A stretch of DNA of 64,000 bases from Pyrinomonadaceae bacterium. GTDB taxonomy: Bacteria; Acidobacteriota; Blastocatellia; Pyrinomonadales; Pyrinomonadaceae. Made by a program: the position numbers and the translations under genes. The stretch covers positions 1 through 64,000 of the forward strand of contig JAVEDE010000117.1 of assembly GCA_030841105.1 (NCBI GenBank), written 5' to 3'. Shown here piece after piece: positions 3,064 through 62,533 of this stretch (positions within the stretch are counted from its first letter, which is position 1; each line of letters starts with the position of its first letter). Under the pieces are notes generated by a model that was not told the DNA's origin, did not search any database, and was given only the letters and a program-made list of their open reading frames with translations.

Positions 3064-3150
3064 AAGAGGTCAGAGGTTAGAGATGAGAGGTTAGTGCGGA
3101 TCAGTTTTCGCTTCTGACTGACCTCTAACCTCTGACTTCTGACCTCTTTT
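3064..3150. repeat. Heptad-arm palindromic element, GAGGTCA family
   Basis: The left arm GAGGTCA-GAGGTTA-GAGATGA-GAGGTTA and the right arm (ACTGACCTCTAACCTCTGACTTCTGACCTC) are imperfect reverse complements about 25 nt apart. The unit is again 7 bp, but the sequence differs from the GTGACAA family. Confidence 0.85.
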
Positions 3151-6498: not shown

Positions 6499-6660
6499 AA
6501 AGTGACAAGTGACGAGTGACAAGTGACGAGACAAGAAAGAGCCGCGGATCGTGAATCGTGAATCGTAAATAGAAAGAACAAGTCTTACTTCTATTCACGA
6601 TTTACGATTCACGATTGACGTTCTTCTCTTGTCACCCGTCACTTGTCACTCGTCACTGCT
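6499..6660. repeat. Nested heptad palindrome (GTGACAA outer, TGAATCG inner)
   Basis: The outer arms are GTGACAA/GTGACGA repeats (6499-6532 and ~6627-6656). In the loop sits a second complete palindrome made of TGAATCG heptads (about 6549-6615, ATCGTGAATCGTGAATCG...CGATTTACGATTCACGATT). One family therefore lies inside another. The whole fills the gap between the GHMP kinase and DedA genes. Confidence 0.9.
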
Positions 6661-7950: not shown

Positions 7951-8031
7951 AAGGTGTTGAGTGTTGAGTGATGAGTGATGGGTGATAAGTCAAACGCTTT
8001 AACTCATCACCCATCGCTCAACACTCAATGC
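7951..8031. repeat. Heptad-arm palindromic element, GTTGAGT/GATGAGT family
   Basis: GTTGAGT-GTTGAGT-GATGAGT-GATGGGT-GATAAGT, then the right arm AACTCATCACCCATCGCTCAACACTCAA. The arms match closely across a loop of about 9 nt. Confidence 0.88.
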
Positions 8032-23667: not shown

Positions 23668-23695
23668 GAAAGTCATTCCTTTATTTGAACGAAGG

Positions 23696-23782
23696 CGGAG
23701 AGGGTGGGATTCGAACCCACGGTGGAGTTTCCCCCACACAGCATTTCCAGTGCTGCCAATTCAACCACTCTTGCACCTCTCC
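23696..23782 (-). tRNA. tRNA-Ser (anticodon GGA)
   Basis: The minus strand folds as a class II tRNA. Acceptor GGAGAGG/CCTCTCC with discriminator G, anticodon stem CAGCA/TGCTG with loop CTGGAAA (anticodon GGA), a long variable arm TGGGGGAAACTCCA, and T-arm GTGGG-TTCGAAT-CCCAC. CCA is not encoded. Confidence 0.95.
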
Positions 23783-23788
23783 GAAGAC

Positions 23789-23868
23789 AGTAACAAGTGA
23801 CGAGTGACAAGTGACGAGCCAAACCCTGTCCTTAGCTCGTCACTTGTCACTCGTCACTTGTTACTGCA
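23789..23868. repeat. Heptad-arm palindromic element between two tRNA-Ser genes
   Basis: AGTAACAAGTGACGAGTGACAAGTGACGAG and its nearly perfect complement CTCGTCACTTGTCACTCGTCACTTGTTACT are separated by CCAAACCCTGTCCTTAG. The arms are about 30 bp. Confidence 0.92.
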
Positions 23869-23877
23869 ATTTTGTGG

Positions 23878-23964
23878 CGGAGAGGGTGGGATTTGAACCC
23901 ACGGTGGAGTTTCCCCCACTCCGGTTTTCGAGACCGGTGCACTAAGCCACTATGCGACCTCTCC
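23878..23964 (-). tRNA. tRNA-Ser (anticodon CGA)
   Basis: A class II tRNA on the minus strand. The acceptor, variable arm and T-arm are nearly identical to the neighbouring tRNA-Ser(GGA). Anticodon stem CCGGT/ACCGG with loop CTCGAAA gives anticodon CGA. Discriminator G; CCA is not encoded. The pair probably arose by duplication. Confidence 0.95.
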
Positions 23965-23972
23965 GCAAAAGT

Positions 23973-24048
23973 AAAAGTGATGAGGGATGAGGGATGAGTT
24001 AAAGACAGTTTCTTTGTTAACTCATCACTCGTCACTCATTACTTTTTC
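23973..24048. repeat. Heptad-arm palindromic element, GATGAGG family
   Basis: AAAGTGATGAGGGATGAGGGATGAGTTAA pairs with TTAACTCATCACTCGTCACTCATTACTTTTT across a loop of about 14 nt. The right arm overlaps the tadA 3' end. Confidence 0.9.
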
Positions 24049-24520
24049 TGCGCGCTCTAAAGAATGCTTGCATCACTTCGCGGCATTCCGTTTCGAGCAC
24101 GCCCGCCGTTAATTCCATTCGATGATTCAAAGAACCGGCATCGCAGATGCGGAAGATTGACTCGACCGCACCCGCCCTTTCGTCGCGCGCCCCGTAGACG
24201 AGACGCCGCACGCGCGCCTGCACCAGCGCGCCCGCGCACATCGCGCACGGCTCGATGGTCGAGTAGACCACCGCGCCCGCGAGCCTGTAGTTTTCAATCC
24301 GGCGTGCCGCCGCGCGCAGGGCGATGATCTCGGCGTGCGCGGTCGGGTCGCAGTCAGTGCGCGTGCGGTTTCCCGCGACGGCCAACAGTTCCCCTGCGGG
24401 ACTGACGACGCACGCCCCGATGGGCACTTCGTTGCGCTCCGTCGCGGCGGCGCGCGCCGCGTCTAAAGCCACGCGCATCCAGCGCGCGTCGGCGTCAACT
24501 TCCACCTCAGGCTCAAGCAT
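24032..24520 (-). CDS. tadA: tRNA adenosine(34) deaminase TadA
   Basis: A 162-residue protein. The zinc/catalytic motifs are 'DCDPTAHAEIIALRAAA' (HAE) and 'STIEPCAMCAGALVQ' (PCxxC), in the TadA rather than cytidine-deaminase arrangement. It converts A34 to inosine in tRNA-Arg(ACG). The last residues (KSNE) and the TGA come from the adjacent palindromic element. A consensus promoter lies 36-70 nt upstream. Its place next to ffs and dnaX matches the Bacillus order. Confidence 0.93.
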   Translation of the reverse strand: MLEPEVEVDADARWMRVALDAARAAATERNEVPIGACVVSPAGELLAVAGNRTRTDCDPTAHAEIIALRAAARRIENYRLAGAVVYSTIEPCAMCAGALVQARVRRLVYGARDERAGAVESIFRICDAGSLNHRMELTAGVLETECREVMQAFFRARRKSNE

Positions 24521-26683: not shown

Positions 26684-26826
26684 AGTGACGAGTGACGAGT
26701 GACAAGTTAAAACCGTCAATCGTCACTCGTGAATCGTGAATAGAGAAAACGAGTTCTTTCTATTCACGATTCACGATTGACGATTTACTTGCTTCTCTCG
26801 TCACTCGTCACTTGTCACTCGTCACT
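26684..26826. repeat. Nested heptad palindrome before hutH
   Basis: The outer arms are GTGACGA/GTGACAA heptads. The inner palindrome is made of TGAATCG units (CGTGAATCGTGAATAGAG...CTATTCACGATTCACGATT), with an extra GTCAATCG transition. It ends eight bases before the hutH ATG, so it forms the whole leader. Confidence 0.9.
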
Positions 26827-30956: not shown

Positions 30957-31253
30957 ACTTGCTTTAGCTCCTCCGGCGATAACTTTCGCGCCCCGTCGCG
31001 CCAACGCGCGCCGCGACTCCGGCGCATCCCCACATCCTTTAGCAACCCACGTTCCCATCGCCCCGGTCGCACACAATCGCCGCCTTTTCGCGTTTCCCGC
31101 TTTCCGCGCCCGCCCGCGCTCGCACCATAAACGGACGGCGGAGGGATGAAAAAGGAACAAAGAGAAGTAAATCGTGAATCGTCGATCGTGAATAGAGAAA
31201 ACTTGATTTCTTCTATTCACGATTCACGATTCACGATTTACTTCTTCCCTTCA
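30957..31253. other. Leader region of the L,D-transpeptidase with nested palindrome
   Basis: About 180 bp of GC-rich sequence without a gene lies next to the start codon. The remainder (31137-31258) is a palindromic element. I see no clear promoter. Confidence 0.4.
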
Positions 31254-31258
31254 TCACT
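31137..31258. repeat. Nested heptad palindrome (GATGAAG outer, TGAATCG inner)
   Basis: The inner arms AAGTAAATCGTGAATCGTCGATCGTGAATAG and CTATTCACGATTCACGATTCACGATTTACTT are nearly perfect. Outside are GGATGAAAAAGGAAC and CTTCCCTTCATCAC. The element supplies the stop codon of the M23 gene. Confidence 0.88.
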
Positions 31259-47807: not shown

Positions 47808-47940
47808 GACCAAAAACGCCTTTCAGTCATAATTACGCCTGACGGGACGCGTAGTTCCAAACTTTTTCAAGCGTCCTTCAAGTTGACGTGAGGCGGGTTT
47901 TGCAGTTGAGCGCGGCTCGCAGCGAAAGCGACGCAGAGGT

Positions 47941-48024
47941 TAACGATGAAGCAGGAACGCGGAACAATGAACTGAAAGTAACTGTCTTCAGTTCATCGCT
48001 CCACGTTCTGACTTCACCGTTTCT
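47941..48024. repeat. Heptad-type palindromic element, GGAACGC/GAACAAT family
   Basis: GTTAACGATGAAGCAGGAACGCGGAACAATGAACTGAAG pairs with CTTCAGTTCATCGCTCCACGTTCTGACTTCACCG. The arms are less well preserved than in the GTGACAA family. Confidence 0.65.
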
Positions 48025-48045
48025 CGCTTCCTTCCGCGCGGCCGT

Positions 48046-50218: not shown

Positions 50219-50305
50219 TAGTGACGAGTGAGGAGTGACAAGTGACGAGCAAAGGCAAGTTTTGTTGTTTCAACTCGTCACTCGTCACCCGTCACTCGTC
50301 GCTGC
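50219..50305. repeat. Heptad-arm palindromic element, GTGACAA family
   Basis: AGTGACGAGTGAGGAGTGACAAGTGACGAG pairs with CTCGTCACTCGTCACCCGTCACTCGTCGCT. The right arm encodes the last residues (TSDG) and stop of sbcD. Confidence 0.9.
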
Positions 50306-51799: not shown

Positions 51800-51885
51800 C
51801 AGTGACAAGTGACGAGTGAGAGGTGACAAGTTAAGGCAGAAATCTTGTCTTTAACTTGTCACCTGTCACTCGTCACTTGTCACTT
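51800..51885. repeat. Heptad-arm palindromic element, GTGACAA family
   Basis: AGTGACAAGTGACGAGTGAGAGGTGACAAGTTAA with right arm TTAACTTGTCACCTGTCACTCGTCACTTGTCACTT, nearly perfect 33-bp arms, 18-nt loop. It lies directly downstream of a minus-strand terminator-like hairpin. Confidence 0.92.
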
Positions 51886-53015: not shown

Positions 53016-53100
53016 AAGTAGATCGTGAATCGTCAATCGTGAATAGAAAGAACTGAGTTTTATCTATTCGCGATTGACGATTCACGATTCACGGCTTTTG
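53016..53100. repeat. Heptad-arm palindromic element, TGAATCG family
   Basis: GTAGATCGTGAATCGTCAATCGTGAATAG pairs with CTATTCGCGATTGACGATTCACGATTCAC across about 18 nt, just before the activator's stop codon. Confidence 0.9.
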
Positions 53101-60164: not shown

Positions 60165-60332
60165 ACAGTGACGAGTGACAAGTGACAAGAGAAGATGAGT
60201 GAATTGTGAATCGTGAATCGTGAATAGATAAAACCTGTCTTCTTCTATTTACGATTTACGATTCACGACTCACTTGCTTCTCTCATCACTCATCACTTGT
60301 ATTAACTTGTCACCTGTCACTTGTCACTGCTT
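60165..60332. repeat. Nested heptad palindrome before the aldo/keto reductase
   Basis: Outer arms CAGTGACGAGTGACAAGTGACAAG and CTTGTCACCTGTCACTTGTCACTG enclose a TGAATCG palindrome (GAATTGTGAATCGTGAATCGTGAATAG...CTATTTACGATTTACGATTCACG), with a GATGAGT-type layer (CTCATCACTCATCAC) between. Three unit types are stacked. With the flanks it makes up most of the 339-bp gap; the next ATG has GGAGG upstream. Confidence 0.92.
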
Positions 60333-61533: not shown

Positions 61534-61875
61534 ATGACGCGAGCAGAAATGAAAACTTTTGCCGACGTGACGCCAGCGGAGTTGAAAACCTTCGCCGACT
61601 TTTGGCCGCACTATCTGGCCGAGCACAGCCACGCGGGCACGCGCCTTTTGCACGCGGCGGGCACGATCACGAGCACCGCGCTGGCCGTCGCGCTCGTGGC
61701 AACGAATCGCTGGCGTTGGCTGCCCCTCGCGCTCGTCACCGGCTACGCCGCGGCGTGGGTCTCACACTTCTTCATCGAACACAACCGCCCCGCCACCTTC
61801 AAGCACCCGCTCTGGTCTTTCGCCGCCGACTACAAAATGGTCGCGTTGATGCTGACGGGGAAGATGAAGGGATGA
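61534..61875 (+). CDS. DUF962 (Mpo1-like) membrane protein
   Basis: 113 residues. The motif 'FWPHYLAEHSHAGTRLLHAAGT', two membrane segments and 'SHFFIEHNRPATFKHPLWSFAADYKM' match DUF962, whose yeast member Mpo1 is a dioxygenase acting on 2-hydroxy fatty acids through similar His residues. The stop TGA is provided by a GATGAGG repeat. GGAG precedes the ATG. Confidence 0.88.
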   Translation: MTRAEMKTFADVTPAELKTFADFWPHYLAEHSHAGTRLLHAAGTITSTALAVALVATNRWRWLPLALVTGYAAAWVSHFFIEHNRPATFKHPLWSFAADYKMVALMLTGKMKG

Positions 61876-61890
61876 GGGATGAATAAGAGA

Positions 61891-61994
61891 TCGTTCTTTG
61901 TCCGTGGTCAATTGTCAGTTGCATGTGGCTACCATCCGAGTCACTTAAAGATTGGATTGAACAACTGACTACTGACTACTGACTACCGACCGAT
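61891..61994. repeat. GTAGTCA-family element with conserved core, copy 3 (reverse)
   Basis: In reverse orientation: GTCAGTA heptads, GTTGTTCAATCCAATCTTTAAG, a core 'TAGCCACATGCAACTGACAATTG', then ACCACGGACAAAGAAC. It shares the core with the copies at 19.6 and 56.8 kb. Confidence 0.85.
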
Positions 61995-62014
61995 TTGAGT
62001 TCATCCCTCATCCC

Positions 62015-62533
62015 TTACTTCTCCGGTGGCGGCGGGATGCGCGCGGCCTCTTCGGGGGTGCGTGCGCGGCGGCGCGCGAGTTCGAGTTTGAGACTCTCTT
62101 CGCCGCGGCGCATGGCGTACTGGTGGTTGGAGGCGAGGAGCGGCCGGAGCAGAAGCGAGAGCGCGCGCACGACGGGCTTGCGGGCGCGCACCTTCCAATC
62201 ATAGGTGATGTCGCAGAGCAGGCCGTCCTGCCGAAACGTCCAGATGCCGCGCCCCTGCAAGTCGCCGATGGCTTCGAGCGTCGAGCCGTGAGGGTGGCGC
62301 GACTCCGTGACGCGAAACTGCCAGCGCAGGCTGTAGGGCAAGTAGCCGCGCGTGTGCAGGCTGACCAGTTTCCCGACGCCGCGCTCGTCGCCCTCCTCAA
62401 GCACTCGCACGTCCAGATAAGTCGCAGGCCACCAGCGACGCAAGTCTTCCACGTTTTCGATCACGGCCGACACTTCCTCACACGTTCCTTCGACGCGCCA
62501 GCGCGAGATGAAATGATAATCGGAAATTGACAT
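62015..62533 (-). CDS. SRPBCC-family (START-like) protein
   Basis: 172 residues from ATG 62533 (MSISDYHFISRWRVEGTCEEV). 'ISRWRVEGTCEEVSAVIENVEDLRRWWPATY' and 'ESRHPHGSTLEAIGDLQGRGIWTFRQDG' follow the polyketide-cyclase/START layout: a helix-grip fold binding a hydrophobic ligand. The last ~25 residues are Arg/Pro-rich. The track's longer start is not supported by a ribosome-binding site. Confidence 0.78.
   Translation of the reverse strand: MSISDYHFISRWRVEGTCEEVSAVIENVEDLRRWWPATYLDVRVLEEGDERGVGKLVSLHTRGYLPYSLRWQFRVTESRHPHGSTLEAIGDLQGRGIWTFRQDGLLCDITYDWKVRARKPVVRALSLLLRPLLASNHQYAMRRGEESLKLELARRRARTPEEAARIPPPPEK

Follow-up and report, generated by a model that had tools for sequence, protein, structure and literature searches.

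The STRR of cyanobacteria are heptameric short repeats. GGGAATC and GGGGA(C/T)T heptameric repeats have been described in Xanthomonas and Nostoc, where some of the Xanthomonas arrays are inverted pairs (PMC4692102), and the TAACTGA repeats of Beggiatoaceae, most of them direct repeats, precede start codons (PMC4679880). The hairpins of Pyrinomonadaceae described here resemble these repeats in being intergenic and made of tandem seven-base words, with many different words in use. Unlike them, nearly all of the Pyrinomonadaceae elements are looped palindromes that hug stop codons, and a hairpin persists at orthologous sites as its word changes.

REP and REPIN sequences are short intergenic hairpins present in hundreds of copies and in several families per genome, and new insertions into existing copies or beside them give rise to clusters (PMC3116915). 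Their conserved end tag is GTAG or CGTC (PMC3733652). The likeness to the Pyrinomonadaceae elements lies in the many short intergenic palindromes per genome and the several families; the latter differ in that their arms are built from heptads, that no RAYT-type gene was found in the genome studied here or its close relative, and that their sites are common to species with different words. The insertion sequences IS1397, ISKpn1 and ISPsy8 use REP palindromes as targets (PMC1525189). They set a precedent for a mobile element that has a palindromic repeat as its target, whereas the inserted item in Pyrinomonadaceae would be the small non-coding heptad hairpin itself. The SDR of Nostoc are very small repeats with units of 21-27 nt that often lie within arrays of heptamers and nest in one another; they may resemble our hairpins in small size and nesting. 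Intrinsic terminators share with the Pyrinomonadaceae elements a hairpin just past the stop codon, but they lack the long arms of repeated words, the families dispersed over the genome and the sites at which the whole word is exchanged; T-runs are enriched at the edges of the Pyrinomonadaceae hairpins, equally on both sides. Our literature search, which covered few of the subscription journals, found no description of site-shared, word-swapped heptad hairpins, a weak indication that they are new.

Hairpins of seven-base words after stop codons

The window, a stretch of 64,000 nucleotides, belongs to a Pyrinomonadaceae (Acidobacteriota) genome (G000) that was compared with a close relative (G001) and a farther congener (G002). 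The closest named relatives found were Pyrinomonadaceae MAG BP_15 and the MAG9 genome. All compared genomes are draft MAGs, and the sample covered 1.06 Mb of G000, 1.64 Mb of G002 as two whole contigs, and parts of G001 and G003.

Palindromes having arms with a period of 7 nt numbered 114 in the sample of G000 and 226 in that of G002, and about 11 word families dominate the two catalogues. Seven was the best lag for 98 of 106 arms in G000 and 177 of 211 arms in G002, with lag-7 autocorrelations of 0.73 and 0.69, respectively; the other lags under 14 gave values of about 0.2-0.3. At our palindrome threshold, the window contained 28 centres in 16 clusters and its codon-shuffled version, the sole null for palindrome counts, contained none. 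Each word listed in the catalogue occupies the 5' arm and its complement the 3' arm; at a more distant locus (L202), a GGTAAAT-like word has the reverse arrangement. Loops are similar within a word family and dissimilar between families, so that a word and its loop behave as a family by descent. The loop of the GTTTCAR family is asymmetric (AGTTAAAGAACCG...CCTCAGTCC) and was found in both orientations on contigs C40 and C11 of G002, which makes it useful for studying the direction of insertion.

Hairpins of this 7-nt period following stop codons are a Pyrinomonadaceae-wide class. The elements are intergenic in 113 of 114 cases in G000 and 223 of 226 in G002 (99%), and are less frequent between divergent gene pairs. 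Between tandem genes, the median distance is 3 nt from the stop codon to the hairpin and 26 nt from the hairpin to the next start, small distances that carry some error because genes were called with our simple codon-score caller; 224 of 257 tandem cases are nearer to the stop and 28 nearer to the start. This also holds for gaps of 300-600 bp, with medians of 7 nt to the stop and 246 nt to the start. Hairpins are present at 106 of 705 and at 199 of 1208 gene ends, corresponding to about 15% of genes. Their median RNA folding energy is -55 kcal/mol. The mean maximum of T at their edges is 4.4, compared with 3.2 in random intergenic 21-mers, and is equal on both sides of the stem; about half of the elements have at least 5 T in 8 at their edges. 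The position relative to stop codons and the T-runs suggest a possible role of the hairpins as terminators or at the 3' end.

In the window, lone GTGACRA hairpins are located at 938-1036, where G002 has a GTTTCAR word, at 2339-2432, with fully complementary arms, at 23788-23866, where the word is of GGAATGC type in G001 and GGGATGA in G002, at 50220-50303, and at 51801-51884, where G002 has GAGGTYA. A lone GAGGTYA-word hairpin at 3064-3148 has a GGGATGA word at its site in G002, and a lone TGAATCG hairpin at 53022-53093 has a GGAACGC/GATGAAC-type word there. The inverted-repeat search supports those at 2339, 3064, 50220, 51801 and 53022, folding those at 938, 2339 and 50220, and comparison with G002 all but the one at 50220, with G001 as well at 23788. 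AAAAGC...GCTTTT edges, present at 2339-2432, occur in several window elements. Hairpins of words other than GTGACRA and TGAATCG lie at 7954 and 23970; one arm at 7954 holds both GTGTTGA and GTGATGA, which are one base apart. Two tRNA-Ser genes (gga, cga) in a row at 23694-23964 are accompanied by heptad hairpins, which lie immediately behind and between the genes (23788-23866 and 23970-24050), showing that such hairpins occur with RNA genes too. At gathering score, the Rfam 15 matches of the window are limited to SRP RNA and two tRNAs and include none of the elements.

Composites of nested hairpins

The original prediction named four places in the window where a TGAATCG palindrome lies in the loop of a GTGACRA or GATGARG palindrome. 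Below, A denotes a GTGACRA-heptad hairpin, B a TGAATCG-heptad hairpin, and A(B) a B nested in the loop of an A. Three of the four nests were confirmed by the sequence, inverted-repeat search and folding. In the composite at 6499, the outer GTGACRA arms (6501-6529 and 6629-6657, the latter with GCTTTT following the arm) enclose an inner TGAATCG hairpin with arms at 6548-6573, which has AAATAGA at its end, and 6590-6615. In that at 26684, the outer arms lie at 26684-26707, where the arm is followed by the outer loop motif GTTAAAAC, and 26803-26826, and the inner TGAATCG arms at 26714-26744 and 26759-26788. The composite at 60165 has its outer GTGACRA arms at 60167-60191 and 60306-60328, both identified by sequence and folding, around an inner TGAATCG hairpin at 60198-60274 (arms 60198-60228 and 60244-60274), and carries an extra unpaired GTGATGA-type stretch on the 3' side at about 60276-60305. 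The fourth, at 31137-31258, was not confirmed as a nest: the TGAATCG hairpin at 31163-31245 is strong by all three methods, but the GATGARG stem proposed around it (about 31143-31157 with 31245-31256) is a weak, short and imperfect match. In G002 the left piece of this stem, GGCGGAGGGATGAAAA, is conserved beside a different hairpin and therefore appears to be flanking sequence, not an outer element.

With words assigned by strict runs, the 1.06 Mb of G000 contain 13 A(B), no B(A), 39 lone A and 5 lone B. That TGAATCG always lies inside is thus true of the A/B pair, but it is not a general rule: the composite at 61867-62016, taken from the palindrome catalogue and also present in G001, nests GTCAGTTG/GTCCGTGG in GGGATGA, and other word pairs are nested elsewhere. 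Constant association of inner and outer types, which the original prediction had named as the sign of a single unit, was looked for and the contrary was seen in the 39 lone A and 5 lone B. The A(B) composite is not one obligate unit. Many copies of B, lone and nested alike, have two distinct ends, a AAAAGCCG end and a AGAAGACAAG-like end, a pattern that was read partly by eye as automatic assignment left many ends untyped.

Comparison of G000 with G001 shows how the composites change. At 6499 the outer A arms are identical and the inner B is different; the composite at 60165 has an almost unaltered outer left arm and a different inner hairpin. The flanks are 92-97% identical. At 26684, the innermost loop is identical and the outer arms are altered, including one paired change: the outer-arm GTGACCA of G001 (contig C79) is matched by TGGTCAC opposite, which suggests arm-to-arm copying or selection for pairing. 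At 47938-48026, comparison with G001 and G002 identifies a lone GATGAAC/GGAACGC-type hairpin in G000, of which G001 keeps the left arm and the GAAAGC loop motif, followed by a different hairpin in the loop, with the right arm gone. This is the single clearest captured loop insertion, provided that the G000 state is the older.

The idea that loops are the preferred target of new elements gains support from the occurrence of A and B both alone and nested, from the two distinct ends of many B copies, from the inner changes at 6499 and 60165, and from the case at 47938. As the main route, however, it gains none: word changes between relatives are mostly clean and without remnants, which offers no support for loop insertion as a general means of replacement. 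An empty outer element was looked for in relatives, and no composite has an A-only orthologue in G002. Nothing was found in favour of outward growth by added heptads, the other possibility that had been raised. Dating the outer against the inner arms by complementarity was uninformative, as the values are equal (0.93 and 0.94, respectively) and relative age is not visible. Inheritance of nested B from a B-only ancestor was likewise considered, and G002 has word B at 3 of about 10 A(B) sites, near the rate for lone A, which is uninformative.

Shared sites and changing words

Orthologous gaps of 60-600 bp were occupied in both G000 and G002 in 46 cases, in G000 only in 11, in G002 only in 15 and in neither in 143 (odds ratio 40, p=2e-23). 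Among 60 G000 elements with both flanks found in G002, at a mean flank identity of 83-95%, 38 sites had a different word and 10 the same word; the others comprised 10 without a strong palindrome and 2 with another palindrome, and there were no empty sites below 25 bp. Most sites have the same word in G000 and G001; it is altered at 23788, C28:22879 and C28:30627, with flanks 93-99% identical; at 23788, the words are unrelated despite flanks of 93-97% identity. A search of the surroundings of replaced hairpins for traces of the other word gave nothing beyond control.

The site upstream of the GHMP-kinase start extends this comparison to 15 loci of the family and class with a palindrome score of at least 13.5. 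All have a best lag of 7, and the words of the hairpins vary from species to species. Within 190 nt upstream of this start at one locus (L193), a GGGATGA hairpin apparently nests a second GGGATGA hairpin after AATAAAGCAA. No heptad palindrome was found in the 21 kb of L198, from the cultured thermophile Pyrinomonas methylaliphatogenes, unlike most uncultured relatives.

The exact 19-base GTGACRA pattern has 494 matches in G000 and 470 in G001, against a single one in G002, and no other genome that was searched has more than 18, which identifies GTGACRA as a burst in one lineage.

Several further observations concern the arms. At 6499 in G001 and in the G001 orthologue of C28:30627, a single hairpin combines GGTAAAT with adjoining or opposing TGAATCG words, as if the word were changing by mutation and spreading within one arm. 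Templating from arm to arm, judged by the variable R base, showed an excess in GTGACRA (153 of 194) and none in GTTTCAR after simulated register choice, and was rejected. Wobble pairing gave no support for selection at the RNA level: on the gene-sense strand, G-U mismatches did not significantly outnumber those of A-C type (161 versus 138, p=0.2). A plain, non-heptad terminator-like hairpin at C48:127802-127842 of G000 and its orthologue in G002 have retained most of their sequence, unlike the heptad hairpins.

Proposed spread and replacement of the hairpins

We argue that several families of copied 3'-end hairpin elements share and exchange sites, and that nesting is one visible route of insertion; we put the probability of this reading at about one half. 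Each family would be a non-coding element of about 70-160 bp with one repeated seven-base word, its reverse complement in the 3' arm and a family-specific loop. The elements would be copied to, and retained at, positions directly behind stop codons; there, the hairpin would most likely act as a bidirectional terminator or as a stabiliser or protector of the 3' end. The site would be maintained since a hairpin there is useful, while over evolution one family supplants another. In the nests, a discrete TGAATCG element would enter the loop of a resident GTGACRA hairpin. This reading follows from the 7-nt period, the 3'-end placement, the shared occupancy with change of word, the family-specific loops and the GTGACRA burst, and its loop-insertion step from the presence of B both lone and nested, the inner change inside a fixed outer hairpin at 6499, and the case at 47938. 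Spread by copying, as well as the direction of insertion in most composites, is what we infer from these patterns. Against the copied-element reading, no mobilising gene was found in the genomes searched, most replacements are clean, which is not expected under plain nested insertion, and neither a G-U excess nor an arm pairing that marks the inner hairpin as younger was seen.

The composites could instead have been nested only once, A(B) having since spread as a unit in the GTGACRA burst, and they would then be uninformative on loop targeting. Full-length composites do match at many places in G001, and several composites have a common asymmetric junction in which TTAA is retained on the AAAAGCCG side only. 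We nevertheless hold this to be unlikely, given that lone A and lone B are common, that G002, which is almost without word A, has lone B with the identical two ends, that the innermost loops vary among composites, and that at 6499 the inner hairpin differs within unchanged outer arms. It is also conceivable that the hairpins are ordinary, immobile 3'-end structures under selection, whose heptads arise by slippage in place and mutate to new words, with nesting as a by-product. Placement at 3' ends and conserved occupancy would fit, as would the one-base-apart words in one arm at 7954 and GGTAAAT next to TGAATCG in G001. But unrelated words at 23788 within flanks of 93-97% identity, loops specific to a word family, a single arm orientation for the listed words in G000 and G002, and the burst of a single word in one lineage make slippage improbable.

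Homologous recombination of intergenic alleles between strains, in which hairpins neither insert nor replace, would readily produce clean replacements without remnants of the other word. It leaves unexplained where alleles with different words come from and why one word burst genome-wide in one lineage, and we give it little credence. Nor do we put much weight on a dedicated process that would rewrite 3'-end hairpins as cassettes, the site being kept for its function and the arms and loop cleanly exchanged for those of a spreading family. Mobilisation of REPIN-type elements by a RAYT (IS200-like Y1) transposase is brought to mind by small intergenic hairpins in hundreds of copies and by lineage bursts; it is very improbable here, since the Y1 transposase family PF01797 has no match in G000, G001 or G008, at a genome completeness of 83-91%, and both matches in G002 contain in-frame stops.

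We would like to point out what the copied-element reading may mean for these bacteria. Repeats normally have a conserved sequence and a scattered position, whereas in the Pyrinomonadaceae hairpins it is the position that is common to species and the sequence that is swapped. The old question of the origin of bacterial heptameric repeats is thereby made testable, as close relatives have different words at the same site. If cassette rewriting were true, the 3' ends of the genome would be repeatedly overwritten by new seven-base words. If the 3'-end role is true, about 15% of the genes in this uncultured family of soil bacteria would owe their 3' ends to copied repeats, which would also overwrite them.
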